Positions 10,051-22,603 of a stretch of 64,000 bases of DNA are shown piece after piece. This DNA comes from an uncultured Bacteroidota bacterium (GTDB lineage Bacteria; Bacteroidota; Bacteroidia; Flavobacteriales; Flavobacteriaceae), in NCBI GenBank assembly GCA_902518355.1, contig CABYFY010000001.1:62001-126000 (forward strand), in the 5' to 3' direction. Numbering within the stretch: position 1 is the stretch's first letter; each line of letters starts with the position of its first letter. A program made the translations under genes and the position numbers. The notes beneath the pieces are model-generated. The model did not search any database and was not told where the DNA came from. It saw only the letters and a program-made list of their open reading frames with translations.

Positions 10051-10133
10051 TACTTAACTTTTTCATAAAATTGATTATTTTGTGCAACATACTAAAATTG
10101 CACTGTGTGTATTATTTGTAATTTTATTCTACA

Positions 10134-10655
10134 ATGAGAGATACATCAACATTAAAGCTGAATTTTGTGGGAACAATGTTTTCCATAGGTATTATTTATT
10201 TTATAATAAGACTGCAATATGATGGAGAGATCCAAATATTAGATTATATTGAATTTTTATTGCCAATATTATTTATATTAATAAATCTAAGTTTATTTAG
10301 GGTAACAGTAAATTCTAATGGTATTTCAAAGTCTTTATTCTTTCCAAATGTCAAATACAATGTAAAATCCTGGAGTGATATTAAACATTTCATAAATGTA
10401 ACTGAAGTTACTAAAGATAGATATGGAAAAGAGGAAAGACAGGAAACAATTTGGTTTGTTGATTTTAATGATAAAGTATGCTTAAGGATTCAAAAAAATA
10501 ATGTGCTTAGCTCAAAGAATATCAAAAAAATAATATCTATTATTAAACAAAGAGAAGTTGAGTATCCAGATAAATTAGTTTTCAGAAGTCCTTATATGTA
10601 TAGAATAGGTCTTTGGAAAGTAGACTATTCAAAAAAAGAAAATCCTGAATTGTAA
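10134..10655 (+). CDS. Membrane protein, paralogue of the 33960 gene
   Basis: 173 residues of unknown function. Two hydrophobic segments (about 12-27 and 41-56) are followed by a cytoplasmic-type domain with RVTVNSNGISKSLFFP, SWSDIKHFINVTEV, ETIWFVDFNDKVCLRI and the ending GLWKVDYSKK. The same blocks, with the same opening MRD-STLKLNF, occur in the 178-residue protein at 33960-34496, so the two are clear paralogues. The strand pattern after the helices resembles bacterial PH-like domains, which is only a suggestion. Its 3' end overlaps the convergent small lipoprotein gene by 31 bases. Confidence 0.75.
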   Translation: MRDTSTLKLNFVGTMFSIGIIYFIIRLQYDGEIQILDYIEFLLPILFILINLSLFRVTVNSNGISKSLFFPNVKYNVKSWSDIKHFINVTEVTKDRYGKEERQETIWFVDFNDKVCLRIQKNNVLSSKNIKKIISIIKQREVEYPDKLVFRSPYMYRIGLWKVDYSKKENPEL

Positions 10656-10765
10656 TTCTCAACATTTAAAACTAAATATTGACTTACATCATCATCGTGG
10701 GCCCACCAAAAATCACTACAACTAAATACAAGTGGAATAAATAGTAATAGTATTAGCTTTTTCAT
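10625..10765 (-). CDS. Small R1-leader lipoprotein
   Basis: 46 residues. The first 16 (MKKLILLLFIPLVFSC) are an intact lipoprotein signal with lipobox LVFSC, encoded by an R1 copy. Only about 30 residues follow (SDFWWAHDDDVSQYLV onward), with no recognised domain. The last 31 bases overlap the 3' end of the opposite gene. It may be a truncated gene that kept only its leader. The ATG at 10765 is chosen because it matches every other R1 gene; an in-frame ATG further upstream lies inside the Kazal gene. Confidence 0.5.
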   Translation of the reverse strand: MKKLILLLFIPLVFSCSDFWWAHDDDVSQYLVLNVENYNSGFSFFE

Positions 10766-10780
10766 ATCGTGTGTTGGTTT
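10734..10780 (-). repeat. R1 start-module repeat, copy 1
   Basis: A full-length copy with one change in the upstream half (CACACGATATG in place of CATACGATATG). Its 5' end overlaps the TAA stop of the Kazal gene upstream. Confidence 0.85.
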
Positions 10781-11006
10781 AGTTGCAAGGACCATCTTCA
10801 TATGCAATCACACCATACCAATTAAGAGCCTCACAACTATTGCCGTAACTATTTCCGTCACAACCGCATACAGGTTCAACAACTGCGGGGCAAGGTATAT
10901 CTGAGCTGATTAATGTTTCATCAACACACATATTAGGCGTATCTTCATCATCATCTTTACAACCAAATACTATTGGAATAAATAGTAATAGTATTAGCTT
11001 TTTCAT
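10779..11006 (-). CDS. Kazal-domain lipoprotein (copy 1)
   Basis: 75 residues: an R1-encoded lipoprotein signal (MKKLILLLFIPIVFGC), an acidic spacer KDDDEDTP, then one Kazal-type domain from about 34 to 74. Its cysteines follow the family pattern C...CPAVVEPVCGCDGNSYGNSCEA...GPC. Kazal domains inhibit serine proteases; a surface-anchored inhibitor is inferred. It is nearly identical to the gene at 17246-17473. The ATG at 11006 lies 2 bases after the stop of the 37-residue gene upstream. Confidence 0.85.
   Translation of the reverse strand: MKKLILLLFIPIVFGCKDDDEDTPNMCVDETLISSDIPCPAVVEPVCGCDGNSYGNSCEALNWYGVIAYEDGPCN
10975..11006 (-). repeat. R1 repeat, copy 2 (coding half only)
   Basis: The signal-peptide half of R1 is intact. 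The usual upstream half is replaced by the end of the preceding small gene (ATTTCTAAAT before the ATG). Confidence 0.8.
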
Positions 11007-11008
11007 AT

Positions 11009-11122
11009 TTAGAAATTTAGTAAGTCTAACAACCAATCCATAATAGCATAGCCGAATTTATATCCAATTGCTAACCCAATAACAACTATAATAAGTTTAA
11101 CCCAATTAGGAAGTTTTTTCAT
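11009..11122 (-). CDS. Small single-helix membrane protein (37 aa)
   Basis: MKKLPNWVKLIIVVIGLAIG begins this 37-residue protein: a basic amphipathic start, one membrane helix (8-22) and a short tail ending WLLDLLNF. The start carries the R1 upstream sequence CCAACATACGATATG, but the coding part diverges after the fourth codon. It lies 17 bases after the stop of the 132-residue membrane gene and 2 bases before the Kazal gene, in one tight string. No family is recognised. Confidence 0.6.
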   Translation of the reverse strand: MKKLPNWVKLIIVVIGLAIGYKFGYAIMDWLLDLLNF

Positions 11123-11138
11123 ATCGTATGTTGGTTTA
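11116..11138 (-). repeat. R1 repeat, copy 3 (upstream half only)
   Basis: AACCAACATACGATATG is intact just before and at the ATG of the 37-residue gene. The coding half is not conserved. Its 5' end abuts the stop of the previous gene. Confidence 0.75.
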
Positions 11139-11139
11139 A

Positions 11140-11538
11140 TTACTCAAACTTTTCTTTTACATCTGTGAAAAATAAAAATGCTAAAATTACTCCGTCTAAA
11201 AGTCCATATGCATTCTCACTAAATTCAAATAAAGGAGTTATAGAAGTTACGGTTGTGACATTATAACTTTCTAAGGAAAATAAAAAATGACTAATAAAGC
11301 TGAAAATAAGATAAAATATAAATAACTTCTTACCAATCCTTTTTAGTTTATATAAGCAATACCACATAAAAGGCAACAATAATATATAGACAAGATAAAT
11401 AACTACTTCTATCGTAGTATCATTATACTCAACTTCTTCATATGGAAAAAAAGTATCCTCGACAATCACTAATAAAAATATTGAAAGAAAGATAAATACT
11501 TGTAGTAAAATGATTTTTTTAAAAATATTGATAGTCAT
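11140..11538 (-). CDS. Four-helix membrane protein, unknown
   Basis: 132 residues with four predicted membrane segments (about 9-26, 43-62, 70-90 and 108-124) and no recognised motif. The second loop is acidic (FFPYEEVEYNDTT). Its ATG overlaps the TGA of a six-codon leader ORF encoded by a truncated R1 copy (ATGA overlap), so translation is probably coupled to that leader. It is second in a minus-strand string after the NTF2-like lipoprotein gene. Confidence 0.65.
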   Translation of the reverse strand: MTINIFKKIILLQVFIFLSIFLLVIVEDTFFPYEEVEYNDTTIEVVIYLVYILLLPFMWYCLYKLKRIGKKLFIFYLIFSFISHFLFSLESYNVTTVTSITPLFEFSENAYGLLDGVILAFLFFTDVKEKFE

Positions 11539-11555
11539 AGTATTAGCCTTTTCAT
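11535..11555 (-). CDS. R1 leader mini-ORF (MKRLIL)
   Basis: The R1 start is followed by ATG AAA AGG CTA ATA CTA TGA, six codons. The TGA shares bases with the ATG of the membrane protein gene. Ribosomes starting at R1 could re-initiate on the next ATG. Confidence 0.5.
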   Translation of the reverse strand: MKRLIL

Positions 11556-11569
11556 ATCGTATGTTGGTC
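11538..11569 (-). repeat. R1 repeat, copy 4 (truncated)
   Basis: CCAACATACGATATG is intact, but the coding half stops after GCTAATACTAT, where the next gene begins. It lies 7 bases after the stop codon of the lipoprotein gene upstream. Confidence 0.8.
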
Positions 11570-11575
11570 AGCCAA

Positions 11576-12100
11576 TTAATTTATTTCTCTATCAGACTTA
11601 TCTCTTTGATACAGGTAAGCCTTTTTAATTTTCCCTTCAACAATTTGCGCGTCAAAAACTCTTTGAAAATTCTTTGCATTATCACCCTCACCATAACTTG
11701 TGTTTAAGCAAGTGGTTACCCAATTTTCCGAAGGCTTATCTCTAAAATTTATATCTGAAGAAATAGACCATAATATTTCCCATTTTGCATTGGGAAACTG
11801 ATCTAAAAATTGTTTAGACATTTCGATATGTTGTTTGCTTCCTTCAACAACCTGACCTGTATGGGCAAAACCTAAAAAATCCTCGTGTTCTAAACTTTCA
11901 ACAGTTTCAAGATCTTTATTGTTATATCCCTCAAAATACTTTACAATTACTTCGAGAGAGGCTTGGTCTCCTATAGTTATATCTACTTTATTTCCATTCT
12001 CAGACTCATATCCAAATACATTTGATTGTTCTGCATTGTTGCATCCAAGAAATACTAATGAAATAATTAATAGTGAGTAAAATTTAAAATAGTTTTTCAT
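11576..12100 (-). CDS. NTF2/SnoaL-like lipoprotein
   Basis: 174 residues with lipobox LVFLGC (residue 20 cysteine) and an NTF2-like fold pattern of the DUF4440/SnoaL type: VIVKYFEGYNNKDLETVESLEHEDFLGF, a helix QHIEMSKQFLDQFP, then strands KWEILWSISSD and FDAQIVEGKIKKAYLY. Such domains bind or turn over small hydrophobic molecules, but the function is unknown. It resembles the lipoprotein at 44415-44915 in order and phrasing. It is the first gene of a minus-strand string and is preceded by an R2 element. Confidence 0.75.
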   Translation of the reverse strand: MKNYFKFYSLLIISLVFLGCNNAEQSNVFGYESENGNKVDITIGDQASLEVIVKYFEGYNNKDLETVESLEHEDFLGFAHTGQVVEGSKQHIEMSKQFLDQFPNAKWEILWSISSDINFRDKPSENWVTTCLNTSYGEGDNAKNFQRVFDAQIVEGKIKKAYLYQRDKSDREIN

Positions 12101-12195
12101 AATGTATAGTTTAATATTTACACAAGATAGTAAGTTGTTTAGGGTTTGTCAAGTAAGAAACGAGGATATTGATATGTCGTATGTTGCTCTATACA
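12101..12195 (-). promoter_or_regulatory. R2 upstream element, copy a
   Basis: The block CACAAGATAGTAAGTTGTTT, then GGGTTTGTCAAGTAAGAAAC, then GAGGATATTGATATGTCGTA (plus-strand reading) recurs upstream of other minus-strand genes at 15.5, 22.2, 22.4 and 23.0 kb. In gene sense it contains CTTGACAAACC and, 20 bases on, TATCTTG, which could serve as promoter boxes. This is inference from position. Confidence 0.6.
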
Positions 12196-12257
12196 TTATA
12201 TATACTATATACTTGATATATATACATTCCTTAAACAACTTTGATAAAAATTGGCAT

Positions 12258-12265
12258 TAACTTTG
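12258..12265 (+). promoter_or_regulatory. Possible -7 box for the fasciclin gene
   Basis: TAACTTTG matches TAnnTTTG and lies 33 bases before the ATG at 12299. A TTG at 12241 is only 14 bases upstream, shorter than usual. Confidence 0.4.
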
Positions 12266-12298
12266 TTTGTATTCCAGCTGAACTTTAAATATATAAAA

Positions 12299-12799
12299 AT
12301 GAAAAATCTAATTTTAACTATTACTACTTTATTATTAACGATTACAATTTCAGCACAAACTGTAGTTGATGCAGCAGTTTCTAATAAAGACTTTTCAACT
12401 CTTGTAACAGCATTAAAAGCTGCTGATTTAGTTGGCGCTCTTAGCGGAGAGGGTCCATTCACTGTATTTGCACCGAATAATGATGCATTTGCTAAAATTG
12501 ACTCGGAAGCTTTGGCAGACTTACTTAAGCCAGAGAATGTAAAAGCACTATCAAATATTTTGACCTACCACGTAGTTTCTGGAAAATTAATGGCCAGCGA
12601 TATTACAAAAGCTTTGAAAAGCGGTTATGGAAAAACTAAGCTTACTGCATTAAATGGTCAAAAATTTATTGCCAGGTCAAAGGGTGATAAAATATTTTTA
12701 AAAGATAAAGACGGTAATATGAGTGAGGTGATTGCAACTGATGTGGTTGGAACAAACGGAGTAATTCACGTTATTGACTCTGTGATAATGCCTGAATAG
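12299..12799 (+). CDS. Secreted fasciclin (FAS1) domain protein
   Basis: 166 residues with a signal peptide (MKNLILTITTLLLTITISAQ) and one FAS1 domain. The H1 motif is GPFTVFAPNNDAFAKI, the middle is LTYHVVSGKLMASDI, and the H2 end is GTNGVIHVIDSVIMP. FAS1 domains mediate adhesion or extracellular binding. The ATG at 12299 is preferred to an upstream in-frame start because it begins the signal peptide and leaves room for the promoter. A strong terminator follows. The gene is an island of plus strand in the minus-strand accessory zone. Confidence 0.9.
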   Translation: MKNLILTITTLLLTITISAQTVVDAAVSNKDFSTLVTALKAADLVGALSGEGPFTVFAPNNDAFAKIDSEALADLLKPENVKALSNILTYHVVSGKLMASDITKALKSGYGKTKLTALNGQKFIARSKGDKIFLKDKDGNMSEVIATDVVGTNGVIHVIDSVIMPE

Positions 12800-12821
12800 T
12801 TATATTTATTTAAGCTTATTT

Positions 12822-12855
12822 AAACCCTCTTGCTATTTGCAGAGGGTTTTTGTTT
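12822..12855 (+). terminator. Rho-independent terminator after the fasciclin gene
   Basis: A perfect 9-bp stem AAACCCTCT/AGAGGGTTT with a 10-base loop, followed by TTTGTTT. Confidence 0.85.
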
Positions 12856-12904
12856 ATCTGCAACTAATTGATTGAACATTAAACTTTAGTATATCAAACA
12901 TTTA

Positions 12905-14173
12905 ATAGACAAAAAGCCAATATCTTCTTTTCAGTTCACTATTATTTTTATATGTTTTTTGTTAAATGTAATAGATGGTATGGATGTTCTTGTTATTTCA
13001 TATACAGCTCCTTCTATTGCTTCCATATGGGATATTTCGCCTGAGACCTTGGGAATTGTATTTAGCTCTGGTTTATTTGGAATGGCAATTGGGGCACTTT
13101 TTTTAGCTCCTTATGCGGATAAAGTGGGTAGGAAAAAAATTATTTTGATTAGTACCATAATTATTTCCTCAGGGGTATTTTTCACTGCTTTCGCTAAAAA
13201 TATAACTCAACTAACTTTTTTAAGGTTTTTTAGTGGAATAGGCATTGGTACTATGCTTGCAAGTACTGTTTCTCTTGTTTCAGAATATACACCTGAAAGG
13301 TCAAAAGATTTTTGGATTAGTTTTGTTTTAGCTGGATATCCTGTCGGGGCGATATTGGCTGGTTATTTAACAAATATTATTTTATTTAAATATTCGTGGC
13401 ACTATGTCTACATAATCTTCGGAAGCTTCTCCATATTACTCATTCCTGTTGTTTATTATTTTCTATTCGAGTCTGTAGGATTTTTAATTAAGAGTCAACC
13501 AATTAATGCAATTTCACGTATTAATAGGATTTATGATAAACTAAAGATTACAAATATCAACACCCTGCCAACTTATGAGAATAAAAGTAATCGAGTTCCC
13601 ATAAATGAATTATTAAATAAAAAATATATTGCCCTAACACTAAAGCTTTGGATTGCATTTTTTTCTGCATTTGTATGTTTATATTATTTAATTAGTTGGA
13701 TTCCTAAAATGGTAACTGATATGGGTTTGTCAATTGAGCTGGGTATTTATTCAGGAACAATATTTAATGTTGGCGCATTTTTAGGTATTATTACACAAGG
13801 CTACTTCTCATTAAAATTAGGTCTCCAAAGAGTCATATCAGCTTTTATGATTTTAACCTGTATCTTGATGACACAAATCCAATATTTTATTGATTCTGAT
13901 TTAATGTTATTTATTTTTGGCGTATTAGGTTTTACAATTCAAGGTGGGTTTGTAGGTTTATATGCATTTGCTGCTAGGATATACCCGTTAGAATTTAGAA
14001 CAACAGGGATTGGATGGGGAATTGGTTTAGGTAGGTTTGGTGCAGTAATAAGCCCATTAATCGGAGGTTATCTAATTGGTGCTGGACTATCTATTTCTCA
14101 TAGTTTTATGATTTTTGGAGCTATAGCATTCCTTTCAGGGTTTACCGTTTATGTAATATCAATAAAAAATTAA
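12905..14173 (+). CDS. MFS transporter (AAHS-like), non-canonical start
   Basis: A major facilitator with 12 helices. The signature GPYADKVGRKK-type loop reads LAPYADKVGRKKIILIS, and NVIDGMDVLVIS in helix 1 matches the DG-D motif of aromatic-acid/H+ symporters. The last helices hold RIYPLEFRTTGIGWGIGLGRFG. The only ordinary start in frame is TTG 12959, but the frame stays open to 12890, and codons 12905-12958 encode DKKPISSFQFTIIFICF, which completes helix 1. Translation therefore probably begins upstream at a rare codon; ATA at 12905 is used here as a placeholder. An unseen frameshift or sequence error is the alternative. Substrate is unknown. Confidence 0.75.
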   Translation: MDKKPISSFQFTIIFICFLLNVIDGMDVLVISYTAPSIASIWDISPETLGIVFSSGLFGMAIGALFLAPYADKVGRKKIILISTIIISSGVFFTAFAKNITQLTFLRFFSGIGIGTMLASTVSLVSEYTPERSKDFWISFVLAGYPVGAILAGYLTNIILFKYSWHYVYIIFGSFSILLIPVVYYFLFESVGFLIKSQPINAISRINRIYDKLKITNINTLPTYENKSNRVPINELLNKKYIALTLKLWIAFFSAFVCLYYLISWIPKMVTDMGLSIELGIYSGTIFNVGAFLGIITQGYFSLKLGLQRVISAFMILTCILMTQIQYFIDSDLMLFIFGVLGFTIQGGFVGLYAFAARIYPLEFRTTGIGWGIGLGRFGAVISPLIGGYLIGAGLSISHSFMIFGAIAFLSGFTVYVISIKN

Positions 14174-14174
14174 A

Positions 14175-14252
14175 TCACAGGCATATCTCCTTCTTTTGTA
14201 CCTGACTAAATGAAATAAGTGGAATAAATAGTAATAGTATTAGCTTTTTCAT
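14175..14252 (-). pseudogene. Remnant of an R1-leader secreted protein
   Basis: Twenty-five codons: MKKLILLLFIPLISFSQVQKKE and then stop. The sequence matches the first 22 codons of the NTF2-like protein at 14965-15504 almost base for base (CATCTCCTTCTTTTGT... on the plus strand) and then breaks off one base from the MFS stop codon. It looks like a truncated duplicate kept as a signal peptide only. Confidence 0.6.
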
Positions 14253-14266
14253 ATCGTATGTTGGTT
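14221..14266 (-). repeat. R1 repeat, copy 5 (complete)
   Basis: Full length: upstream half ACCAACATACGATATG, coding half AAAAAGCTAATACTATTACT continuing to ATTCC. It follows a second, truncated R1 trace at 14273-14285 in the same orientation. Confidence 0.85.
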
Positions 14267-14272
14267 TTACTA

Positions 14273-14410
14273 TTAGCTTTTCCATTTTTTCAAATATCTA
14301 TATATTAAAAATGCTAAAAAGAGTCCGAGTCCAAGCATAGTAATAATAAATAAATTATCACTCATTAGAGAATCTTTAAGTGTGTCAGTATGTAAAAGTA
14401 CTTTCTTCAA
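14273..14410 (-). CDS. Small membrane protein (45 aa), duplicated family b
   Basis: Starts at TTG 14410 and contains LLHTDTLKDSL, then one membrane helix (FIITMLGLGLFLAFLIY) and a basic end YRYLKKWKS. A close relative of 42 residues is at 16951-17079. In that copy the end is KYLKK followed by TGA, overlapping the next ATG; here ATGA has become ATGG, so the frame runs four codons further. No family is recognised. Confidence 0.5.
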   Translation of the reverse strand: MKKVLLHTDTLKDSLMSDNLFIITMLGLGLFLAFLIYRYLKKWKS

Positions 14411-14444
14411 GAAATTATTTAACAGCTTTAATATATTTTATTAC

Positions 14445-14519
14445 TTAGCTAAGCATCTTCCCAAATAAGCATAAAAAATATCTGACTACGAATCTAATTT
14501 GTGTAACTATTTTTTTCAT
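14445..14519 (-). CDS. Small basic protein (24 aa), duplicated family a
   Basis: ATG AAA AAA ATA ... ending FGKMLS. It contains RYFLCLFGK, also found in the 28-residue protein at 17114-17200. It follows the OsmC stop, with a weak R1-like start (AACATACTATATG). It is short and of low certainty, but conservation between the two copies supports translation. Confidence 0.4.
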   Translation of the reverse strand: MKKIVTQIRFVVRYFLCLFGKMLS

Positions 14520-14531
14520 ATAGTATGTTAC

Positions 14532-14960
14532 TTAGTCTCCTGATGCTAATGTAGCATTTACAGAAATATTACAATTTAAAGCTCCTGAAATAGGACAATT
14601 ATTTTTTGCCTCAAGCACCAATTCATCAAATAAAATCTTACTAATTTCAGGTACTTTTGCAATAAGTTTTAGTGATATTTCAACTATTTTACCATCTTCA
14701 AATATTAGTATAGCATCTGTATTTAATTCAATAGGATGGTAGTTGTTTTCATTAAGAACAAAACTTAATTTCATATTAAAACAACCTGCAAGTGCTGCAG
14801 CGATTAATTCCTCAGGATTTGTCCCGAGATCACCTTTATCATTTTCAAATCTTGTTTTGAAACTGTATGGCATTTCATTAAAAGCACCGCTTTGAGCTGT
14901 TAATATACCCTGCCCATTTGCTCCACCGCCTTGCCAAATTGCATTTACTTTTCTTTTCAT
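14532..14960 (-). CDS. OsmC family peroxiredoxin-like protein
   Basis: 142 residues, typical of OsmC/Ohr proteins, which reduce organic hydroperoxides in the cytoplasm. The two family cysteines are present, in AAALAGCFNMKLS (about residue 60) and in NNCPISGALNCN (about 125). The N-terminus GILTAQSGAFNEMPYSF and GDLGTNPEELIAAA are also typical. Its ATG lies 4 bases after the stop of the NTF2-like gene, so it belongs to that transcription unit. It is the one clearly cytoplasmic enzyme in this string. Confidence 0.92.
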   Translation of the reverse strand: MKRKVNAIWQGGGANGQGILTAQSGAFNEMPYSFKTRFENDKGDLGTNPEELIAAALAGCFNMKLSFVLNENNYHPIELNTDAILIFEDGKIVEISLKLIAKVPEISKILFDELVLEAKNNCPISGALNCNISVNATLASGD

Positions 14961-14964
14961 AGTT

Positions 14965-15504
14965 TTATTTTTTATTGTTCATTTTAATACCTGACATTGA
15001 AAACATTTGCCAAGAATTACCAACTTTCTTATACATATATATTCCTCTTCCTGTGAAAATATTTTCATAATTATCATTAAACCTGGAGTATGTAGCATCC
15101 AAAACACAAATATTTTTTGATATCCAAACAACCCTTGATTTTTTTAGTTTGCTATATTTATAACCATCTTGAATATTTTTTCTTATCTGTTTATAGGATT
15201 TAATTAATTCATCTTCATTATTAATTATAATAGGATTGTCAAAAAGAGATAATGTAACTGGAAATGTAAAATAGGTTTTTATCTTATCAAAATCTGAATA
15301 CTCAAAAGCTCTACTATATTCTTCCCATCTTTCAATAATCTTCTTTTCGGTTATTTTTTTCATTTTATGAGAATTAGAGGTAATCTTTTTCTTCATTTGT
15401 ACCTCCATTTTTTTCTTCATCATTTGATTCATATTCATCTCCTTCTTTTGTGCCTGACTAAAAGAAATAAATGGAATAAGTAGTAATGGTATTAGCTTTT
15501 TCAT
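14965..15504 (-). CDS. Secreted NTF2-like (DUF4440-type) protein
   Basis: 179 residues. The R1-derived signal peptide (MKKLIPLLLIPFISFSQ) is followed by a lysine- and methionine-rich stretch (MNMNQMMKKKMEVQMKKK) and an NTF2-like domain (about 50-175) with WEEYSRAFEYSDFDKIKTYF, VVWISKNICVLDATYSRF and a final GNSWQMFSMSGI. The function is unknown. A truncated duplicate of its first 22 codons is at 14175-14252. An R2 element lies directly upstream, so this is probably the first gene of the string that continues into osmC. Confidence 0.75.
   Translation of the reverse strand: MKKLIPLLLIPFISFSQAQKKEMNMNQMMKKKMEVQMKKKITSNSHKMKKITEKKIIERWEEYSRAFEYSDFDKIKTYFTFPVTLSLFDNPIIINNEDELIKSYKQIRKNIQDGYKYSKLKKSRVVWISKNICVLDATYSRFNDNYENIFTGRGIYMYKKVGNSWQMFSMSGIKMNNKK
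15473..15504 (-). repeat. R1 repeat, copy 6 (coding half, diverged)
   Basis: The coding half is kept with two changes (GTATTAGC after GTAATG on the plus strand). The upstream half is replaced by the R2 junction. Confidence 0.7.
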
Positions 15505-15574
15505 AATATTTAAGTTTAATGTATCTACAAGTTAGTGAAAAAGTTGTTTATGGTTTAACGTGTGTTGCTCTACC
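15505..15574 (-). promoter_or_regulatory. R2 upstream element, copy b
   Basis: Contains CTACAAGTTAGTGAAAAAGT and TGTTTATGGTTTAACGTGTG on the plus strand, ending GTTGCTCTA as in copies a and d. The middle GTCAAGTAAG block is missing. It directly abuts the start codon at 15504. Confidence 0.6.
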
Positions 15575-15585
15575 TTTTTAATTTT

Positions 15586-15753
15586 TTATTGATTTATTTT
15601 ACTCCAAATACCAAAAAATGCAAACAAAAATAATAGCAAAATAAGTCCTATTCCCGTTACTCCATCAAAGTTAAAACCAAATTCTTGTGCATAAAAAAAT
15701 GTAACAACACCAATTACTATTGTAATTAGGTTTAAAGCAAGTTTTTTTTTCAT
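15586..15753 (-). CDS. Small two-helix membrane protein (55 aa)
   Basis: MKKKLALNLITIVIGVVTFF opens the first helix; a second helix runs about 34-50 and the protein ends IWSKINQ. The start has the R1 upstream block (AACATACGATATG) 24 bases after the stop of the TonB-like gene. The coding part is unrelated to R1 after the lysines. No family is recognised. Confidence 0.6.
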   Translation of the reverse strand: MKKKLALNLITIVIGVVTFFYAQEFGFNFDGVTGIGLILLLFLFAFFGIWSKINQ

Positions 15754-15765
15754 ATCGTATGTTTC
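15748..15765 (-). repeat. R1 repeat, copy 7 (upstream half only)
   Basis: AACATACGATATGAAAAA at the start of the 55-residue gene. Confidence 0.65.
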
Positions 15766-15777
15766 TTAGTATGGGTT

Positions 15778-16230
15778 TTAATACTTAATCCTTATTACTT
15801 CTTTTTTTTTAACTTGGAAAATAATTGGCAGAGAATAAGGGACAATTACAGGTTTTCCATTTATTTTTCCTGGTTTCATTTTTGGAAGTAAATTAATTAC
15901 TCTAATGGCTTCATCTTTAAGTTGAGGATGAGGAGCTCTGGCTCTAACATCAGTGATATTTCCCAAAGTATCAATTTTAAATATAGCGCTAATACGTTGT
16001 CGACCAGTTAGACCTAAGTCTGCAGCTATATCAGTATTATATTTACTTTGCACAAATTTTGCGATTTTTTCAGACATACATTTTCTCTTATTTTTATCGC
16101 TTCCCCTATTACAGCCTGGAAAAATAGGCACACTTTCAATCACTTCAGAGGATACTTTAGAATTATTTTCGGTTTCAGATTGCCCAAAAGAAAGAAATGG
16201 AATAAATAGTAATAGTATTAGCTTTTTCAT
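15778..16230 (-). CDS. Secreted TonB C-terminal domain protein
   Basis: 150 residues: an R1-encoded signal peptide (MKKLILLLFIPFLSFGQ), a short linker and a TonB C-terminal domain. The domain shows ESVPIFPGC, then RISAIFKIDTLGNITDVRARAPHPQLKDEAIRVI in shortened form, then PKMKPGKINGKPV. It has no membrane anchor or proline-rich spanner, so it is a soluble periplasmic TonB-domain protein rather than a complete energy transducer. The ATG at 16230 is chosen over an upstream in-frame ATG because it matches the R1 module and follows the previous stop by 19 bases. Confidence 0.85.
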   Translation of the reverse strand: MKKLILLLFIPFLSFGQSETENNSKVSSEVIESVPIFPGCNRGSDKNKRKCMSEKIAKFVQSKYNTDIAADLGLTGRQRISAIFKIDTLGNITDVRARAPHPQLKDEAIRVINLLPKMKPGKINGKPVIVPYSLPIIFQVKKKEVIRIKY

Positions 16231-16244
16231 ATCGTATGTTGGTT
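16199..16244 (-). repeat. R1 repeat, copy 8 (complete)
   Basis: Full-length copy lying 5 bases after the stop of the acetolactate-decarboxylase-like gene, and giving the TonB-domain gene its start and signal peptide. Confidence 0.88.
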
Positions 16245-16249
16245 TATTA

Positions 16250-16954: not shown

Positions 16955-17079
16955 TTTTTCAAATATTTACATATTAAAAATGCTAAACAAAGCCCAAGCC
17001 CAAGCACAATAATAACAAATGAATTATCACTGAGTAGAGAATCTTTAAGTGTATCCGTATGTAAAAGAGTTTTGTTCAA
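16951..17079 (-). CDS. Small membrane protein (42 aa), family b second copy
   Basis: Starts at TTG 17079 with LLHTDTLKDSL, then one helix (FVIIVLGLGLCLAFLIC) and KYLKK. Its TGA overlaps the ATG of the decarboxylase-like lipoprotein. Conservation with 14273-14410 at both DNA and protein level, and the coupled stop/start, support it as a real gene. Confidence 0.55.
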   Translation of the reverse strand: MNKTLLHTDTLKDSLLSDNSFVIIVLGLGLCLAFLICKYLKK

Positions 17080-17113
17080 GATATTATTTAACAGCTTTAA
17101 TATATTTTATTAC

Positions 17114-17200
17114 TCAGCCAAACAACTTTCCAAATAAGCACAAAAAATATCTGAATACTGAGCCAATATGAGCGACTATTTTTTTTATAAAGTTAATCAT
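17114..17200 (-). CDS. Small basic membrane-associated protein (28 aa), family a
   Basis: MINFIKKIVAHIGSVFRYFL and an end CLFGKLFG. Its ATG overlaps the TGA of the R1 leader mini-ORF (ATGA). The shorter relative is at 14445-14519. Confidence 0.5.
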   Translation of the reverse strand: MINFIKKIVAHIGSVFRYFLCLFGKLFG

Positions 17201-17232
17201 AGTATAAATAGTAATAGTATTAGCTTTTTCAT
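17197..17232 (-). CDS. R1 leader mini-ORF (MKKLILLLFIL)
   Basis: Eleven codons from the R1 ATG, then TGA overlapping the ATG of the 28-residue gene. It has the same layout as 11535-11555. The coding half of R1 is interrupted just before the CCN proline codon. Confidence 0.5.
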   Translation of the reverse strand: MKKLILLLFIL

Positions 17233-17246
17233 ATCGTATGTTGGTT
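17203..17246 (-). repeat. R1 repeat, copy 10
   Basis: Upstream half complete, coding half up to ACTATTTATA. The first base overlaps the TAA stop of the second Kazal gene, exactly as copy 1 does after the first Kazal gene. Confidence 0.85.
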
Positions 17247-17473
17247 TAGTTGCAAGGACCATCTTCATATGCAATCACACCATACCAATTAAAAGCCTCA
17301 CAACTATTATTATATGTATTTCCGTCACAACCGCATACAGGTTCAACAACTGCGGGGCAAGGTATATCTGAGCTGATTAATGTTTCATCAACACACATAT
17401 TAGGCACATCCTCATCATCACTGCTACAAGCAATGACAAGTGGAATAAATAGTAATAGTATTAGCTTTTTCAT
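17246..17473 (-). CDS. Kazal-domain lipoprotein (copy 2)
   Basis: 75 residues with lipobox LVIAC, acidic spacer SSDDEDVP and one Kazal-type domain identical in most positions to the copy at 10779-11006 (changes include NSYGN to NTYNN). The cysteine pattern is complete. The two genes agree almost base for base across the domain, so the duplication is recent. The ATG at 17473 is preceded by ATTTCTAAACTTCGAT, a trace of the same upstream gene that precedes copy 1. Confidence 0.85.
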   Translation of the reverse strand: MKKLILLLFIPLVIACSSDDEDVPNMCVDETLISSDIPCPAVVEPVCGCDGNTYNNSCEAFNWYGVIAYEDGPCN

Positions 17474-17476
17474 ATC
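17442..17476 (-). repeat. R1 repeat, copy 11
   Basis: Coding half complete; upstream only CGATATG remains. Confidence 0.8.
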
Positions 17477-17690
17477 GAAGTTTAGAAATAAAGTACTATA
17501 ATTATGAACAAGTATTTTTCTTGGTTTTTATTTATCTATAATTAAGTGATTTAACATTGATTTTTGAATATAATAAAAATATGGTTTGCTTTTTGTAATG
17601 TTTATGATTTTTAGAGTAAAAAATTATGAATTTCACATCTCTTTTTTCTTTGAGTTGTTTGAATAGTATGTTAAATTAATTTTTTTAACA

Positions 17691-19151
17691 ATGAGGGTAT
17701 CAATAATAGGTTCAGGGGTAAGTGGAATATGTGCCGCAATAAGACTAAAATCTAAAGGATTTGATGTAGCTGTCTATGAAAAAAATAAGATGCCCGGTGG
17801 AAAATTAAATACTTTCAAATTAGACGGATTCAGGTTTGATGCTGGTCCTTCACTTTTTACGATGCCACAACTGGTAGACGAGTTGTTTGAGCTCAACAAT
17901 TTGAACCCCAGGGATTATTTTACGTACAAAAAAAAGAAAATACATTGTAAATATTTTTGGGATGATAAAACAAAATTTACTGCATACTCAAATAGAAAAA
18001 AATTCTTAAAAGAGGTTAAAAATAAGTTTAAAGTAGACGAGTCTACAGTGAATAACTATTTAAAAAAGGCAAAAATAAAATATGATTTAACGGAGAAGAT
18101 TTTTTTAAGAAAATCACTTCATAAACTTTCTAGTTTTTTAAATATTGAAACAATCAAAGCTCTTTTTAATTTAAATATTTTTCAAATAAATAAAACATTA
18201 AATGAAGTAAATTCTGATGAATTAAAAAATAAATACTTAATACAAATATTTAATAGATATGCAACATATAATGGCTCATCTCCTTACAAAACTCCTGGAA
18301 TGATGACATTAATTCAACACTTGGAAAACCATTTTGGAACATTTGTGCCCGAAGGGGGGATGTACGAAATAACAAATACTTTATTCAATTTAGCGAAGCA
18401 AATTGGAGTAAAATTTTATTTTGAATGTAACGTTGACGAGATTATCTTAGAAAAAAAAGCTGCGAAAAAGATAAAAGTAAATAATAACTTGATTGAGTCT
18501 GATATTATTATTTCAAATGTTGATATAAATTATACCTATAAAAAACTATTAAAACAAAAATTTAATCATAAATCCCTGAAAAACGAAAGCTCTAGCTCTG
18601 CTTTAATTTTTTATTGGGGAATAAAAGGAACTTATGATAAGTTAGATCTTCACAATATATTTTTTTCTTCAAATTACAAAGAGGAGTTTGACTCAATTTT
18701 TGAAAAAAAACAAATTTTTGACGACCCCACTGTTTATGTTAATATTTCGTGTAAGGATATTTCATCGGATGCCCCTAAAGGGTCAGAAAATTGGTTTGTT
18801 ATGATTAATTCACCATATAATATAAATCAAAACTGGGATAGACAAATTCAAATAAGTAGAAAACAAATAATTAATAAGCTTGAGAAAATACTTGGCATAG
18901 AGATTGGAAAAAACATAATAAAAGAAAAAGTTTACAGTCCAATTGATTTAGAATCAAATACAAACTCATTTAACGGTTCATTATATGGGAGCTCAAGTAA
19001 TAATATTATGTCCTCTTTTATGAGACATCCAAATTTCACTAAAAGAATAAAAAATCTATTCTTCTGCGGAGGGAGTGTACATCCGGGCGGTGGGATACCC
19101 TTAGCAATTTTATCATCAAAAATAGTTTCTGATTTAATTGAAAGCAAATAA
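17691..19151 (+). CDS. crtD: CrtI/CrtD-family carotenoid desaturase
   Basis: 486 residues of the phytoene-desaturase superfamily. The N-terminal FAD-binding fold has GSGVSG (7-12) and, after the second strand, YEKNKMPGGKL. Then come FRFDAGPSLFTMP and the C-terminal motif CGGSVHPGGGIPLAILSSKI. The next two genes are CruF- and CrtA-like, so the best reading is the 1-hydroxycarotenoid 3,4-desaturase CrtD, acting on acyclic carotenoid ends. Phytoene desaturase CrtI is the alternative. The ORF is lysine-rich and AT-rich like its neighbours. The end overlaps cruF by 14 bases. Confidence 0.82.
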   Translation: MRVSIIGSGVSGICAAIRLKSKGFDVAVYEKNKMPGGKLNTFKLDGFRFDAGPSLFTMPQLVDELFELNNLNPRDYFTYKKKKIHCKYFWDDKTKFTAYSNRKKFLKEVKNKFKVDESTVNNYLKKAKIKYDLTEKIFLRKSLHKLSSFLNIETIKALFNLNIFQINKTLNEVNSDELKNKYLIQIFNRYATYNGSSPYKTPGMMTLIQHLENHFGTFVPEGGMYEITNTLFNLAKQIGVKFYFECNVDEIILEKKAAKKIKVNNNLIESDIIISNVDINYTYKKLLKQKFNHKSLKNESSSSALIFYWGIKGTYDKLDLHNIFFSSNYKEEFDSIFEKKQIFDDPTVYVNISCKDISSDAPKGSENWFVMINSPYNINQNWDRQIQISRKQIINKLEKILGIEIGKNIIKEKVYSPIDLESNTNSFNGSLYGSSSNNIMSSFMRHPNFTKRIKNLFFCGGSVHPGGGIPLAILSSKIVSDLIESK

Positions 19152-19773
19152 AAAAAACATATCAATATTTATAATTTGGCTAGTACATATTTCTGGTCTT
19201 TTGGGTATGGTGTTTTACGATCTTGATTTTTTTGCAGGTTATACCTCATTAAATCTTTTTCTGATGTCAATAATTCTATTTGCAAATATTAAATTGAATA
19301 ACAAGAATCAAATATTTGCACTTTTATTAATTTTTTTAATCGGTATGCTTTCTGAGTTTATTGGAGTTAATTACGGATTAATTTTTGGAGAATATATTTA
19401 TGGAAATAATTTAGGATTCAAACTTTTTGGTGTACCATTCTTAATTGGCTTAAATTGGGTAATATTGACTGTAATTTGTGCAAATATTGCCTCAATTTTA
19501 ATTAAAAATAATAGTATTATACAGATAATTATTTTAGGAACTTTACTAATGTTGTTTATGGATTTTGTTATGGAGCCCATTGCACCAAAATTAGATTTAT
19601 GGAAATTTAAGAATTTAGTAGTACCAACCTCAAATTACATAGGATGGCTAATTATTAGCATATTAACACAAACTATTTACAACATTCAATTTAAGGAAAA
19701 AGAGTTTAAGCTTTCATTTAATTTATATACTGCAATTTTTTTATTTTTCGTTTCTTTAAATTTAATTTTATAA
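19138..19773 (+). CDS. cruF: CruF-like carotenoid 1,2-hydratase (DUF422)
   Basis: 211 residues with about seven membrane helices and the carotenoid-biosynthesis DUF422 pattern: LIFLIGMLSEFIGVNYGLIFGEYIYG in shortened form, PFLIGLNWVIL and DFVMEPIAPKLDLWKF. CruF adds water across the 1,2 double bond of acyclic ends, the step before CrtD. The start is TTG at 19138, within the end of the desaturase gene. No later ATG keeps the first helix. Confidence 0.82.
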   Translation: MKANKKNISIFIIWLVHISGLLGMVFYDLDFFAGYTSLNLFLMSIILFANIKLNNKNQIFALLLIFLIGMLSEFIGVNYGLIFGEYIYGNNLGFKLFGVPFLIGLNWVILTVICANIASILIKNNSIIQIIILGTLLMLFMDFVMEPIAPKLDLWKFKNLVVPTSNYIGWLIISILTQTIYNIQFKEKEFKLSFNLYTAIFLFFVSLNLIL

Positions 19774-19788
19774 TGTTTATAATCTAAT

Positions 19789-20490
19789 ATGAATAAACAG
19801 ATTACAACTATTTCCTTTTTTAAGTTTTCATCTTTGCAAAATAAAATTTGGGCTTTTGTAATGATGTTACTTGCTCATAAGGACTTATATAAAGTCAAAG
19901 GGCTTTCTTTTTATCGATTAATGGGTAGTGGTAAGGACAAAGGCTTTAATCCACTGCCGGATTGGTCTGTATACAGCTTAATACAAGTTTGGGAATCCGA
20001 AGAAATCGCAAATCAATTTTTTAATAGATCAAAATTAATCAAAAAATACAAAAATCATACAAAAGAAACGTATACACTATATATGAAAAATATTGCCTCT
20101 ATAGGAACCTGGATTGATAAAACCCCTTTTCAGAAAGCGACAGATTTAGACCCTAACCAACCCATTGCTATCATTACTAGAGCAACTATTAAATTGAGTT
20201 GGCTATTACGATTTTGGAAATATGTTCCAACTTCTCAAGAACCCTTAGACGGAAATAAAGGTTTGATCTACACAAAAGGAATCGGTGAGGTTCCAGTTGT
20301 CCAAATGGCAACATTTAGCTTGTGGAAAAACTTTAATGCAGTAAAGGAGTATGCTTATAAAAGCAAACAACACAAAGAGGCGATTAGAAAAACTCGAAAA
20401 AATAATTGGTATAAAGAAGAGTTGTTTTCAAGGTTTCACCCATATAAATCACTTGGTACTTGGGATGATAATAATCAATTGATTTTTTAA
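19789..20490 (+). CDS. crtA: Spheroidene monooxygenase (CrtA)-like protein
   Basis: 233 residues matching the CrtA family: ITTISFFKFSSLQNKIWAF, KVKGLSFYRLMGSGKDKGFNPLPDWSVY in shortened form, and the final RFHPYKSLGTW. CrtA oxygenates C-2 of acyclic carotenoid ends in purple bacteria; homologues exist in carotenoid clusters of Bacteroidota. Placed 15 bases after cruF, it is probably the third gene of one operon. The product in this organism is not determined. Confidence 0.82.
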   Translation: MNKQITTISFFKFSSLQNKIWAFVMMLLAHKDLYKVKGLSFYRLMGSGKDKGFNPLPDWSVYSLIQVWESEEIANQFFNRSKLIKKYKNHTKETYTLYMKNIASIGTWIDKTPFQKATDLDPNQPIAIITRATIKLSWLLRFWKYVPTSQEPLDGNKGLIYTKGIGEVPVVQMATFSLWKNFNAVKEYAYKSKQHKEAIRKTRKNNWYKEELFSRFHPYKSLGTWDDNNQLIF

Positions 20491-20493
20491 ACA

Positions 20494-21423
20494 TCATTTT
20501 GGATTTGCAATAATCGTCATTATACCAAGTGAGGATTTTTTTTCATAAAATCTCAAAGGAAAAAATTTAATCATTCCAATTATAAAACCAATAAATTCTT
20601 CTTCCATACTCTTATCCCATCTTATCTCTTTTTTTTCCATTTCACTCATCCAGTATAGTAAATACGGATTCATAGTCCCATATGTAAAAACTTTAGAAAT
20701 GTTCCATCTGCTTTTTTTTAGTAACAGTTTAATATTTTTAGGTGAGAATAATGACAGGTGTCTAGGTGTGTGCCAGCCAGCCCAGTATTTCCCATATTTT
20801 TTTCTACTTAAAGAATTGAAATTAGGAACTTCTATTATTAGCTTAGTGGATGGTTTGGAGATTTTTTTTAATGACTTTAGGTTTTCAAGAGGATTATAAT
20901 CGTGTTCCAAATAATGCCACATTGTAATTACATCTGGACGAAGATTGGCTGGTAAATCTTTGATTTCACCTACTCTTAAATCAATTTTTTTAAAATTTTT
21001 TAATTGATTTCTCCAGCCTGCATCGTTAAAGTCAATTCCAATTGTTTTACAATTTAATTTTTGCTGACAAGCTTTTAAAAAAGTAGGATTTCCACAGCCA
21101 ACATCTAAGATAAGTGACTCCTTAGAAAGACTTTGAATATCTTTTATTAGTTTAACCCTCTTTAAATCTAGTTTTTTTTGGCTTTGTGAGACAAACCATC
21201 CAAATTTTCCCCAAGCCTTTGCGCCCCGATATGGTAAGTAATGAGACGTATAATAGTTTTTCAAATCTTCAAATTTTAATCTCGGGTTTAGAAAAACAAA
21301 ATCACACTTATTGCATTTATCAAAATTAAATAGCCTATCATTATGGTGCATTTGAGAGGTTGTCTTAATAATAGATCTTAAAGAAGTCGATCTACACACT
21401 GGACAATTATTAATTTTCATCAT
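20494..21423 (-). CDS. Class I SAM methyltransferase with N-terminal zinc ribbon
   Basis: 309 residues. Four cysteines (C7, C10, C37, C40) in CPVC and CNKC form a zinc-ribbon-like N-terminus. The methyltransferase core has LILDVGCGNPTFL and the acidic strand IDLRVGEIKDLP, then MWHYLEHDYNPLENLK. This layout is common in methyltransferases acting on sugar or lipid precursors. Its ATG lies inside an R1 leader ORF on the same strand, and it converges on crtA with a 3-base gap. The substrate is unknown. Confidence 0.85.
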   Translation of the reverse strand: MMKINNCPVCRSTSLRSIIKTTSQMHHNDRLFNFDKCNKCDFVFLNPRLKFEDLKNYYTSHYLPYRGAKAWGKFGWFVSQSQKKLDLKRVKLIKDIQSLSKESLILDVGCGNPTFLKACQQKLNCKTIGIDFNDAGWRNQLKNFKKIDLRVGEIKDLPANLRPDVITMWHYLEHDYNPLENLKSLKKISKPSTKLIIEVPNFNSLSRKKYGKYWAGWHTPRHLSLFSPKNIKLLLKKSRWNISKVFTYGTMNPYLLYWMSEMEKKEIRWDKSMEEEFIGFIIGMIKFFPLRFYEKKSSLGIMTIIANPK

Positions 21424-21472
21424 TTAGCTCTAAAATGAAAGTGATAAATAGTAATAGTATGGGCTTTTTCAT
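21410..21472 (-). CDS. R1 leader ORF before the methyltransferase
   Basis: Twenty codons starting MKKPILLLFITFILE, ending 14 bases inside the methyltransferase gene in another frame. Its ATG overlaps the TGA of the DoxX-like gene. Confidence 0.4.
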   Translation of the reverse strand: MKKPILLLFITFILELNDEN

Positions 21473-21484
21473 ATCGTATGTTGC
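21441..21484 (-). repeat. R1 repeat, copy 12
   Basis: CAACATACGATATG with the coding half up to ACTATTTAT; one block changed (CCCATA for CTAATA). The upstream half is read as codons of the DoxX-like gene. Confidence 0.82.
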
Positions 21485-21804
21485 AAGATTATTATTCCTA
21501 AAATTAGGTAAGCTATAGCAGGAAGAATTTCAGAAATATTGTCTTTTATTTTGATTCTAACATAAACAGCTACAAGCATCATTATTATTAAAATTACAGA
21601 GCTAACAATTAGTAAAAGATTTGACCAAAGCCCGATTAGTATTCCTATACCACAAAATAATTGAAAACCACCGATTTCTCTTCTTCTTTTTTCCAAGCCC
21701 CATCTATTAAACTCCAAAATCATTTTATTTGAAATAAAAGAATTTATTCCGTATGCAATAAATGATATCGCTACAAATACTATAATTATATTGTATACAT
21801 CCAT
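21469..21804 (-). CDS. DoxX-like membrane protein
   Basis: 111 residues with four helices and the DoxX-like loop IGGFQLFCGIGILIGLW. The start ATG 21804 overlaps the TGA of the upstream membrane gene; a longer frame to 21819 would begin inside that gene. The last four residues QHTI and the TGA are encoded by the R1 repeat (CAACATACGATATGA), so the repeat has supplied the protein C-terminus. The function of this family is not established beyond membrane localisation. Confidence 0.75.
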   Translation of the reverse strand: MDVYNIIIVFVAISFIAYGINSFISNKMILEFNRWGLEKRRREIGGFQLFCGIGILIGLWSNLLLIVSSVILIIMMLVAVYVRIKIKDNISEILPAIAYLILGIIILQHTI

Positions 21805-22148
21805 CAAATTAAGCCACAATTAAATGAAGCAATAAATAGAGACATAATTAAAAATATTAGTGATGGAACAAACTTTATAAAAGGGTTTTTAACTTTTATG
21901 TGTGAAACTTGGGCACATAACATAAAGAATGCCATTGATAAGGATGCATAAATTGTTATCTCATTATACCATATACCAAGTATTAATAATGTTGAGGTTG
22001 ATGTTTTTGACACACCAACAAAATTTCTTAACAAGTCTGAATATCCATAATGTTTAAATTCCACTACTATATTGTCATATCTAAAAATCCAAACAATAAG
22101 AACAGAGATTGCAACAATTAGTTGAAATGCTATTGAAATATTTTCCAT
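21804..22148 (-). CDS. DoxX-like membrane protein
   Basis: 114 residues with four hydrophobic segments and a loop HYGYSDLLRNFVGVSKTS that parallels the neighbour's region, so the two are probably distant relatives in the DoxX-like group. Its stop overlaps the next ATG. An R2 element lies directly before the ATG at 22148, suggesting this is the first gene of a three-gene string ending with the methyltransferase. Confidence 0.65.
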   Translation of the reverse strand: MENISIAFQLIVAISVLIVWIFRYDNIVVEFKHYGYSDLLRNFVGVSKTSTSTLLILGIWYNEITIYASLSMAFFMLCAQVSHIKVKNPFIKFVPSLIFLIMSLFIASFNCGLI

Positions 22149-22244
22149 AATCCAAATTTATTTAATGCATCCACAAGTTAGTGAAAAAGTTGTTTATGGT
22201 TTGTCAAGTAAGAAACGAGGATATTGATATGTCATATGTTGGTT
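22149..22244 (-). promoter_or_regulatory. R2 upstream element, copy c (most complete)
   Basis: Contains all blocks: CCACAAGTTAGTGAAAAAGT, TGTTTATGGTTTGTCAAGTA, AGAAACGAGGATATTGATAT and GTCATATGTTGG (plus-strand reading). Its far end matches the R1 upstream half in part (ATATGTTGGTT). Confidence 0.65.
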
Positions 22245-22371
22245 AGGAAGCCTTGTCTAAAATCTTCTGTAGTGCGTCAATCAGTTTTTTATTACCCCCA
22301 TTGGGTTTTTTTAATTCTTTAGAAATTGTTTGGTTTAAATTATTTATGAGATCTTTTTGTTTTCTTGCCAT
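22243..22371 (-). CDS. Small basic cytoplasmic protein (42 aa)
   Basis: MARKQKDLINNLNQTISKEL begins a lysine-rich, probably helical protein with no membrane segment; it ends IDALQKILDKAS. It has its own R2 element upstream, which is why it is called a gene. No family is recognised. Confidence 0.5.
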   Translation of the reverse strand: MARKQKDLINNLNQTISKELKKPNGGNKKLIDALQKILDKAS

Positions 22372-22387
22372 ATAACCCTTTTTAGTT

Positions 22388-22447
22388 TTTTTAATTTATC
22401 CACAAGTTAGTGAAAAGTTATTTATGGTTTATCTTATGTTGCTCTAT
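22388..22447 (-). promoter_or_regulatory. R2 upstream element, copy d (short)
   Basis: ATCCACAAGTTAGTGAAAAG then TTATTTATGGTTTATCTTAT and GTTGCTCTA. It lacks the GTCAAGTAAG block, as copy b does. Confidence 0.6.
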
Positions 22448-22533
22448 AAAATTGAAAAGGTTCGAAAGATAGCCAACCATAGCAATCAATCAAACCAATT
22501 CTTTTTGTGTGATGCGAATATATATAAATTAAA

Positions 22534-22572
22534 TTAAATTGGAATAAATAGTAATAGTATTAGCTTTTTCAT
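22534..22572 (-). CDS. Orphan R1 leader ORF (MKKLILLLFIPI)
   Basis: Twelve codons and TAA; no gene follows in frame. The stretch from here to the next gene downstream (22448-22533) shows no other coding signal. It may be a relic of a lost gene. Confidence 0.4.
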   Translation of the reverse strand: MKKLILLLFIPI

Positions 22573-22574
22573 AT
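22541..22574 (-). repeat. R1 repeat, copy 13 (coding half)
   Basis: The coding half is identical to the consensus through ATTCC; upstream only CATATG remains. Confidence 0.8.
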
Positions 22575-22603
22575 GAAATGATGAATTAATTAGCTAAAAT
22601 ATC

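Follow-up and report, generated by a model that had tools for sequence, protein, structure and literature searches.

The 64,000-nucleotide stretch of an uncultured Flavobacteriaceae bacterium analysed here (hereafter the window; positions 62,001–126,000 of contig CABYFY010000001.1, assembly GCA_902518355.1) carries an array of genes that begin with nearly the same bases. This 47-base repeat, denoted R1, consists of a short sequence to the left of the start codon (the tail) and a sequence that often encodes a signal peptide (the head), which meet at the start codon in the 8-base core ATGAAAAA. Genes change neighbours at these joins (seams); at seams with an ATG head the switch lies inside ATGAAAAA and the two halves of R1 are separate, and array genes have been transferred between species. 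On balance we think it probable that the arrays consist of mobile, mostly one-gene cassettes, held at recurrent hotspots and exchanged by recombination at a short core, perhaps by an enzyme acting in trans. A typical cassette would begin with the ATGAAAAA that contains its start codon and close with a short tail past its stop codon.

The 23-base core of the R1 head (ATGAAAAAGCTAATACTATTACT) has 11 minus-strand copies between 10743 and 22572 (at most three mismatches) and no match in 100 shuffles. Seven copies of the 5′ part of R1 with its first codons (ACCAACATACGATATGAAAAAGC) are found at the same threshold, and another three, incomplete copies near 11132, 14529 and 15763 bring the window total to 14, in agreement with a preliminary description of this DNA, which had claimed at least 13 on the minus strand. 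The assembly from which the window comes (1.42 Mb, 79.7% complete) has 15 copies at up to two mismatches, all on one strand and only in this region and at 64.5–67.3 kb of contig C7. Bodies behind R1 in the window exceed Pfam cut-offs for Kazal, TonB_C, acetolactate-decarboxylase-like, OsmC and DoxX-like families, and an NTF2/SnoaL-like body matches below its cut-off; the families thus differ, as had been described, although two Kazal bodies are 93% duplicates and so not without other similarity. Across the genus, 66 heads encode exactly MKKLILLLFIP; where such heads stand before unrelated bodies, codons 2–11 are on average 97.8% identical (2083 pairs), against 77.6% expected from codon usage, which upholds the claim that the DNA identity of R1 goes beyond the needs of the peptide. 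The gap between the upstream stop codon and the seam ATG is approximately −5 to +39 nucleotides in all but one of the 134 seams (of 167) for which it was determined, in 5-nucleotide bins. Overlooked in the preliminary description were that R1 copies are made of two half-elements, and that some of them front antisense genes or yield just a short leader open reading frame (ORF).

We compared 21 genomes of the genus (the window genome included; 56–86% complete) with 39 genomes of other genera. A 22-base piece of R1 (at most two mismatches) was present in 19 of the 21 and in none of the 39; the Kazal protein, used as a query, gave five loci. Arrays lie at two recurrent loci, a and b, with different contents in each species, and R1 is not confined to single conserved gene positions. 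Locus a, in the window, is flanked by rseP, which has a strong match in 20 of the 21 genomes; in 13 genomes, the window genome included, the contig continues from rseP into an array, and in G001, G004, G005, G009, G014, G015 and G018 it stops at most about 4 kb from rseP in the direction of the array, a break of the kind that repeats cause in short-read assemblies. Between the rseP side and the array of the window lies a tRNA-Asn gene, and tRNA-Asn is also found in 13 of 18 further loci scanned, which are the 13 locus-a stretches; tRNA-Ala occurs in two locus-b stretches. Locus b neighbours genes for an FGGY kinase and a sulfatase-modifying-factor-like protein. Nine conserved flanking proteins were scanned and no recombinase was among them, six having metabolic or other matches and three having none. 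Misassembly as the sole cause of the arrays is unlikely, because they occur in independent assemblies of different species.

Gene content changes at the seams between related genomes, which bears out the suggestion that R1 is a recombination seam. In a first all-versus-all comparison (within-genome comparisons included), 149 of 833 shared blocks started within 60 bases upstream of an R1 ATG and 150 of 820 ended within 60 bases downstream of one; the uniform expectation for starts and ends is 3.8%. Block ends between genomes (791 unique ends, compared with a wider list of seams) lay from −20 to +48 of a seam ATG in 334 cases (42%, against 7% for random positions) and inside ORFs in 107 (14%, against 76%). 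At locus b, the sequences of G000 and G005 share 95.6% identity for 5.5 kb, as far as approximately +29 inside an R1 head; beyond this shared head a lipoprotein gene follows in G000 and, in G005, a carotenoid block, which is 96.2% identical over 3.95 kb to the block at locus a of the window genome, where it again stands behind an R1 head. Twelve pairs have the same downstream gene and no ATGAAAAA-like start in either member; in eight of these the block in common extends no closer to the start than −4 on its upstream side or stops farther upstream, often at a leftover R1 head or at a promoter-type head, the other class of sequence found to the right of a seam.

The position of the switch was resolved by per-position linkage over 167 seams anchored on ATGAAAAA. 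Sixty pairs have sequence that is related upstream and unrelated downstream; in these, identity to the left of the ATG is 0.68–0.98 and from +8 lies near the unrelated baseline. The reverse pattern is seen in 100 pairs related downstream and unrelated upstream, the final bases of the tail lying slightly above the baseline. At ATG-headed seams, linkage thus switches between −1 and +8, inside the 8-base ATGAAAAA, the left half of R1 being inherited with the upstream gene and the right half with the downstream gene. The same switch was seen when the analysis was repeated with anchoring on the tail at non-ORF sites, of which 75 were ATG-headed (23 and 22 pairs).

The two halves also assort independently. 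Among 195 start-codon junctions picked regardless of the halves, 36 had both, 35 the tail only, 55 the head only and 69 neither (Fisher p 0.46); for the 153 junctions with a demonstrated switch of neighbour the corresponding numbers were 27, 29, 45 and 52 (p 0.87). As some of these 52 junctions with neither half are shifted duplicates or have halves near the threshold, we recounted a strict set, in which the 45 bases upstream contain no second ATGAAAAA (177 junctions, 138 of them switching). Tail and head were again independent under three pairs of cut-offs (p 0.6–1 for both the 177 and the 138), and 25 of the 138 switching junctions, from 12 genomes, had neither half at the middle cut-offs (20 under the most generous). 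The independence of the halves, together with the junctions that have neither, is our main argument against crossing-over along the 47-base repeat. The proposal that R1 is a single copied start and export module is therefore abandoned, since at ATG-headed seams tail and head follow different neighbours and assort independently; R1 has the look of a single module because the core is most often flanked by one particular tail and one particular signal-peptide head. The idea of a seam is retained, with the cassette, joined at the start-codon core, as its unit. The tail is more than a ribosome site, because it is also present directly before promoter-type heads (25 of 114 non-ORF sites); it is strongly biased to the array strand (127 sites against 14 on the other strand at up to two mismatches; 48 against none for exact matches).

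Array genes are more similar between genomes than their chromosomal surroundings. For 143 shared pairs (at least 68% nucleotide identity over 90% of the length, a cut which favours similar pairs), mean identity is 86.7%, compared with 76.6% for rseP in the same genome pairs, and the array gene is the more identical in 119. In 52 of the 143 the array gene is at least 90% identical where rseP is below 80%, compared with 1 of 320 flanking-gene pairs. Counted by family, the median shows an excess in 35 of 38. Seven flanking control clusters average 75–80% identity.

The arrays would be transcribed as operons from interspersed promoter-type heads, with each start probably fed by the preceding stop codon; for non-secreted cargo, the R1 head would serve as a short leader whose stop overlaps the start of the cargo. 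Exchange itself may, with some uncertainty, proceed by short-core recombination through an enzyme in trans rather than by RecA along the whole 47-base R1. A more specific proposal, which we advance tentatively and at rather less than even confidence, is that the arrays belong to an undescribed exchange system in which a recombinase acts at the approximately 8-base ATGAAAAA, free of IntI, attC and attI, and moves single genes and larger blocks, such as the carotenoid block, between loci and between species of this marine flavobacterial genus; every captured gene would then join a ready start directly behind the preceding stop codon.

Several observations weigh against cassette exchange at a short core. 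No recombinase for such an exchange was found in these genomes, whose incompleteness makes the absence weak and a gap possible. The identity of the core is partly a matter of construction, because seams were anchored on ATGAAAAA, and the result is the linkage on either side; moreover, the linkage pairs are not independent (28 upstream and 29 downstream groups). Among the 25 promoter-headed sites, which gave just 3 and 6 pairs, the final six bases of the tail track the downstream side and not the upstream one, and a looser tail-anchored set (292 sites, some of them intragenic) gives a less sharp picture, the downstream linkage of the tail being 0.85 against a baseline of 0.70. The standard tail is present at just 45 of 124 head-anchored seams. 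Some 58% of the 791 block ends lie away from detected seams, for example at promoter-type heads or where homology fades. The clearest syntenic case (G000/G005) breaks at approximately +29, within the head common to both genomes, and because this head is shared the crossover cannot be placed finely. In a first breakpoint test, 44 of 73 pairs with the same downstream gene diverge at +30 or beyond, inside the signal peptide, and 17 of 48 with the same upstream gene diverge in the tail, left of the ATG; a single fixed crossover without later mutation leaves these breaks unexplained. Retention of neighbours is low but not zero: 17 of 209 informative gene-start pairs keep both neighbours (69 and 123 keep just one), and recurring family neighbour pairs number 4 of 97, or 28 of 87 by genome pair. 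With respect to transfer, pairs below 68% identity were dropped ahead of the rseP comparison, and three of the seven flanking controls mostly exceed rseP (75/105, 23/24 and 12/15), by 2–5 points on average compared with 10 for array genes.

The chief rival, because many seams share 25–50 bases, is RecA-dependent recombination over the shared tail and head, with selection keeping those joins that preserve start and stop. R1 does offer such a length of near-identical sequence at many sites, crossovers between identical copies would be invisible, and breaks within the signal peptide do occur, including the one at +29 of the shared head in the clearest syntenic case. Nevertheless, the halves are independent and do not compensate for one another, junctions with neither are found among both the strict and the looser switching sets (25/138 and 52/153), and the switch at ATG-headed seams occupies some 8 bases only, the end of the tail showing slight downstream linkage at most. 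Entry of DNA by a competence route was considered and set aside: the ComEC family (PF03772) was found in none of the 21 incomplete genus genomes, compared with 10 of 14 control genomes, and DNA entry through ComEC is therefore unsupported. We regard the RecA explanation as unlikely. We think it improbable that the arrays are an ordinary tRNA-anchored island, additive or tycheposon-like, loaded by tRNA-targeting tyrosine integrases and with seams that are secondary. A tRNA-Asn gene does lie next to the array, both in the window and in all 13 stretches of locus a that were scanned, as does tRNA-Ala in two of locus b, and extra phage-type integrases lie near or in locus a of G008 and G020; these are, however, just 2 of the 21 genomes, and island integration would lead one to expect neither one-gene units joined at the start codon nor the recurrence of the cassettes at locus b.

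A degenerate integron, or a cluster of attC sites lacking integron integrases (CALIN), whose attC-like sites were missed by standard models would account for one-gene cassettes in a dominant orientation, mostly unknown genes, ORF-less stretches and occasional reversed genes. Gene-cassette arrays are known mainly from integrons, which require IntI and attC; attC sites carry R boxes of the form RYYYAAC...GTTRRRY, with crossover at G/TT. The single-gene array expected of an integron or CALIN is present (247 genes in 128 families), yet no such boxes are seen by eye in the switch region GATATGAAAAA of the aligned seams, the heads are not constant, and no genome of the 21, which are incomplete, exceeds the 265-bit cut-off of the integron integrase model TIGR02249. 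Weaker matches to this model occur in all 21, mostly in XerC/XerD-like ORFs of about 300 amino acids, two being in phage-type integrases. The array works like an integron cassette array, without an integrase over cut-off or visible attC boxes, and we consider an integron origin very improbable. Least credible of all is a reading without mobility, in which R1 is a start and signal-peptide sequence kept by selection or gene conversion on resident genes. Heads are indeed often signal peptides, the tail and ATG could form an initiation region and many junctions preserve the start, but the identity of the heads exceeds expectation (97.8% against 77.6%), tails are found ahead of promoter-type heads as well, antisense genes lie behind R1 heads, and content at the same locus differs between species, with changes of neighbour that contradict resident genes.

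Other enzymes and carriers were sought for the exchange that we favour. Y1 transposases (IS200/IS605 and REP-type) and serine recombinases were rejected as candidates, with nothing over cut-off in the 21 incomplete genomes: the single Y1 match lies below its cut-off and has stops inside, and the resolvase/invertase domain PF00239 is found in none. In the window genome (79.7% complete) just two PF00589 genes were found, on contigs C4 and C12 and away from the arrays; they are XerC/XerD-like by size and match. In XerCD-dif modules every join has a dif-like site of 28 bp with a pair of 11-bp arms. A plausible dif, TATAATTTATATTATGTNAA (or one base off), was found in at least eight genomes; seams have only AACATA in common with it and are variable on the right side, and most pattern hits were at control level, so that XerCD-dif modules were likewise rejected. 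Exact matches to R1, the tail or promoter-type heads were not found in viral contigs, 1 kb of array had no match in plasmids or phages, and no viral relatives were found for two cassette proteins.

A search of the open literature returned no description of such arrays within the terms used, and the passages seen of a study of lateral transfer in marine plankton (PMC12416821) do not mention flavobacteria. The likeness to integrons lies in single-gene cassettes of one orientation, mainly of unknown function and with high turnover (PMC9024848 and general descriptions), as well as in some ORF-less stretches and a few reversed genes. Here, in contrast, no IntI exceeds its cut-off in the 21 genomes, the start codon marks the seam and is followed by a variable head, and attC boxes are not in evidence. 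For Alteromonas (PMC4119200) and the Methylophilaceae (PMC10872708), additive flexible genomic islands have been described at tRNA genes, and in the latter repeats of the tRNA-Lys end precede the island. These resemble the present arrays in a tRNA-bordered site that is constant across species, in variable cassettes and in their aquatic hosts; they differ in that the repeat here is no copy of a tRNA end and that most units consist of one gene attached at its start codon. Tycheposons, described as cargo elements of 4–200 kbp (PMC10872708), share the tRNA border (here tRNA-Asn, at locus a) and the presence of a tyrosine recombinase in some genomes; they differ from the window, in which no element with its own recombinase was found. 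For Borrelia, Marconi et al. are said to have reported in 1996 an ‘upstream homology box’ family, in which near-identical upstream and signal-peptide DNA precedes divergent lipoprotein genes; here, by contrast, the seam is common to unrelated genes, some of them non-secreted or reversed, and lies in dense operon-like arrays. Streamlined marine bacteria appear to maintain a pool of cassettes in which no parts of an integron can be recognised. A join at the start codon would place the incoming gene for translation and would give a concrete route for gene trade among small oceanic genomes, carotenoid block included, and the making and moving of cassettes becomes testable on a defined 8-base core.

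Cassette content was counted from simple ORF calls on 31 contig stretches, with 51 clusters judged to be flanks or carotenoid block excluded. Of 247 genes touching a seam or tail, 219 are in array sense; their mature parts form the 128 families, 80 of them singletons, a few of which are spurious ORFs antisense to promoter-type heads. Pfam matches for 92 representatives (among 108 references listed) fall into 52 families, 49 of which match one member each, and a scan of the same representatives for defence genes gave two models with one match each. Starts resembling ATGAAAAA are found in 166 of 229 array-sense ORFs, 13 of 59 antisense ORFs within the zones and 122 of 361 ORFs outside. Behind the 167 seams lie an open ORF of at least 38 amino acids (109), a short leader with a further start (25), no nearby ORF (23) or no ATG (10). 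Fifteen of the 25 leaders run into the next start or directly up to it (11 with an offset of −1, as in ATGA), and the other ten have a start 4–40 nucleotides on. Since leaders, ORF-less seams and reverse-strand genes also follow R1 heads, export through these heads is common and not defining. Promoter-type heads contain TTGAC and TA-rich motifs, which we take to resemble Bacteroidetes promoters; single-stranded folding of one such element was not better than that of shuffles (z 0.16), and an Rfam scan of window positions 9000–24500 found nothing besides the tRNA.

Table 1. Positions of the array and its surroundings in the window.
Feature	Position	Strand	Remarks
rseP	7676–9022	+	conserved flank of array locus a; TIGR00054, 230 bits (cut-off 147.55)
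tRNA-Asn(GTT)	9846–9920	+	3′ end toward array; ARAGORN, Rfam
Array segment 1	10625–12100	-	five genes including SnoaL-like, membrane, Kazal lipoprotein
Last R1 gene, segment 1	10625–10765	-	
R1 seam	10743–10781	-	tail and head
Kazal lipoprotein, segment 1	10779–11006	-	
R1 head of Kazal gene	10984–11006	-	without standard tail
Tail and ATGAAAAA	11113–11138	-	head gene-specific
Small gene, segment 1	starts 11122	-	
Membrane gene, segment 1	11140–11538	-	after 6-amino-acid R1 leader
R1 seam	11533–11568	-	head is a 6-amino-acid leader, stop overlapping next ATG
SnoaL-like gene, segment 1	11576–12100	-	
Promoter-type head element	12085–12235	-	about 110–150 bp; terminal inverted repeat AGTTGTTTAAGG / CCYTAAACAACTT; carries tail-like CAACATACGA core
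Array segment 2	14230–17473	-	Kazal, decarboxylase-like, TonB_C, small membrane, NTF2-like and OsmC genes
R1 seam	14230–14268	-	
R1 head	15482–15504	-	after promoter-type head
R1 seam	16208–16246	-	
R1 head	16932–16954	-	without tail; ATG overlapped by upstream stop
R1 seam	17210–17248	-	head is an 11-amino-acid leader overlapping next start
R1 head of Kazal gene	17451–17473	-	
Carotenoid block	17523–21473	.	CrtD-like, CruF-like, CrtA-like, methyltransferase; 96.2% identical to locus b block of G005
R1 seam	21450–21485	-	carotenoid block edge, methyltransferase side
Tail-like core and promoter-type head	22136–22243	-	
R1 head	22550–22572	-	short leader, no gene directly after
Promoter-driven gene	22604–23029	-	same array; its promoter-type head at 23014–23103

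Within the carotenoid block, the CrtD gene (17691–19151) exceeds its NCBIfam cut-off, its CruF- and CrtA-like neighbours being below theirs. Full-length CrtD matches are present in 8 of the 21 genomes, the window genome included, and are more similar than rseP in six of seven relatives.

The element at 12085–12235 (also in stretches L009, L107 and L035), whose right end is promoter-like, has at least five matches in the window genome, in or near arrays. The element is also present on other contigs of G005, G008, G012, G013, G015 and G016, which are perhaps further array loci, and gave weak short matches in two other genera among the candidates scored.

Between the array and tRNA-Asn of G008 (C6:28140–38702; stretches L046/L104), the phage-type integrase is followed by genes of 957, 443 and 604 amino acids, which by size only look like a restriction-modification island. 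In G011 (L039), two short MGHSSLKV ORFs at array coordinates 10563 and 13458 cluster with the integrases of G008 and G020; they may be integrase remnants flanking a few cassettes.

Reverse-strand genes for a PEMT/ICMT-like methyltransferase and for a 187-amino-acid protein recur between seams (clusters 5 and 20, for example in L044 and L095), and the latter gene has a boundary motif of its own, GATATGCCTATGATTTA. An ORF-less stretch beginning TTCGCATCACACAAAAAGAATTGG recurs directly after R1 heads, at 22440–22540 of the window and in L039, L041, L046 and L048, and resembles a gene-less cassette or a small RNA.

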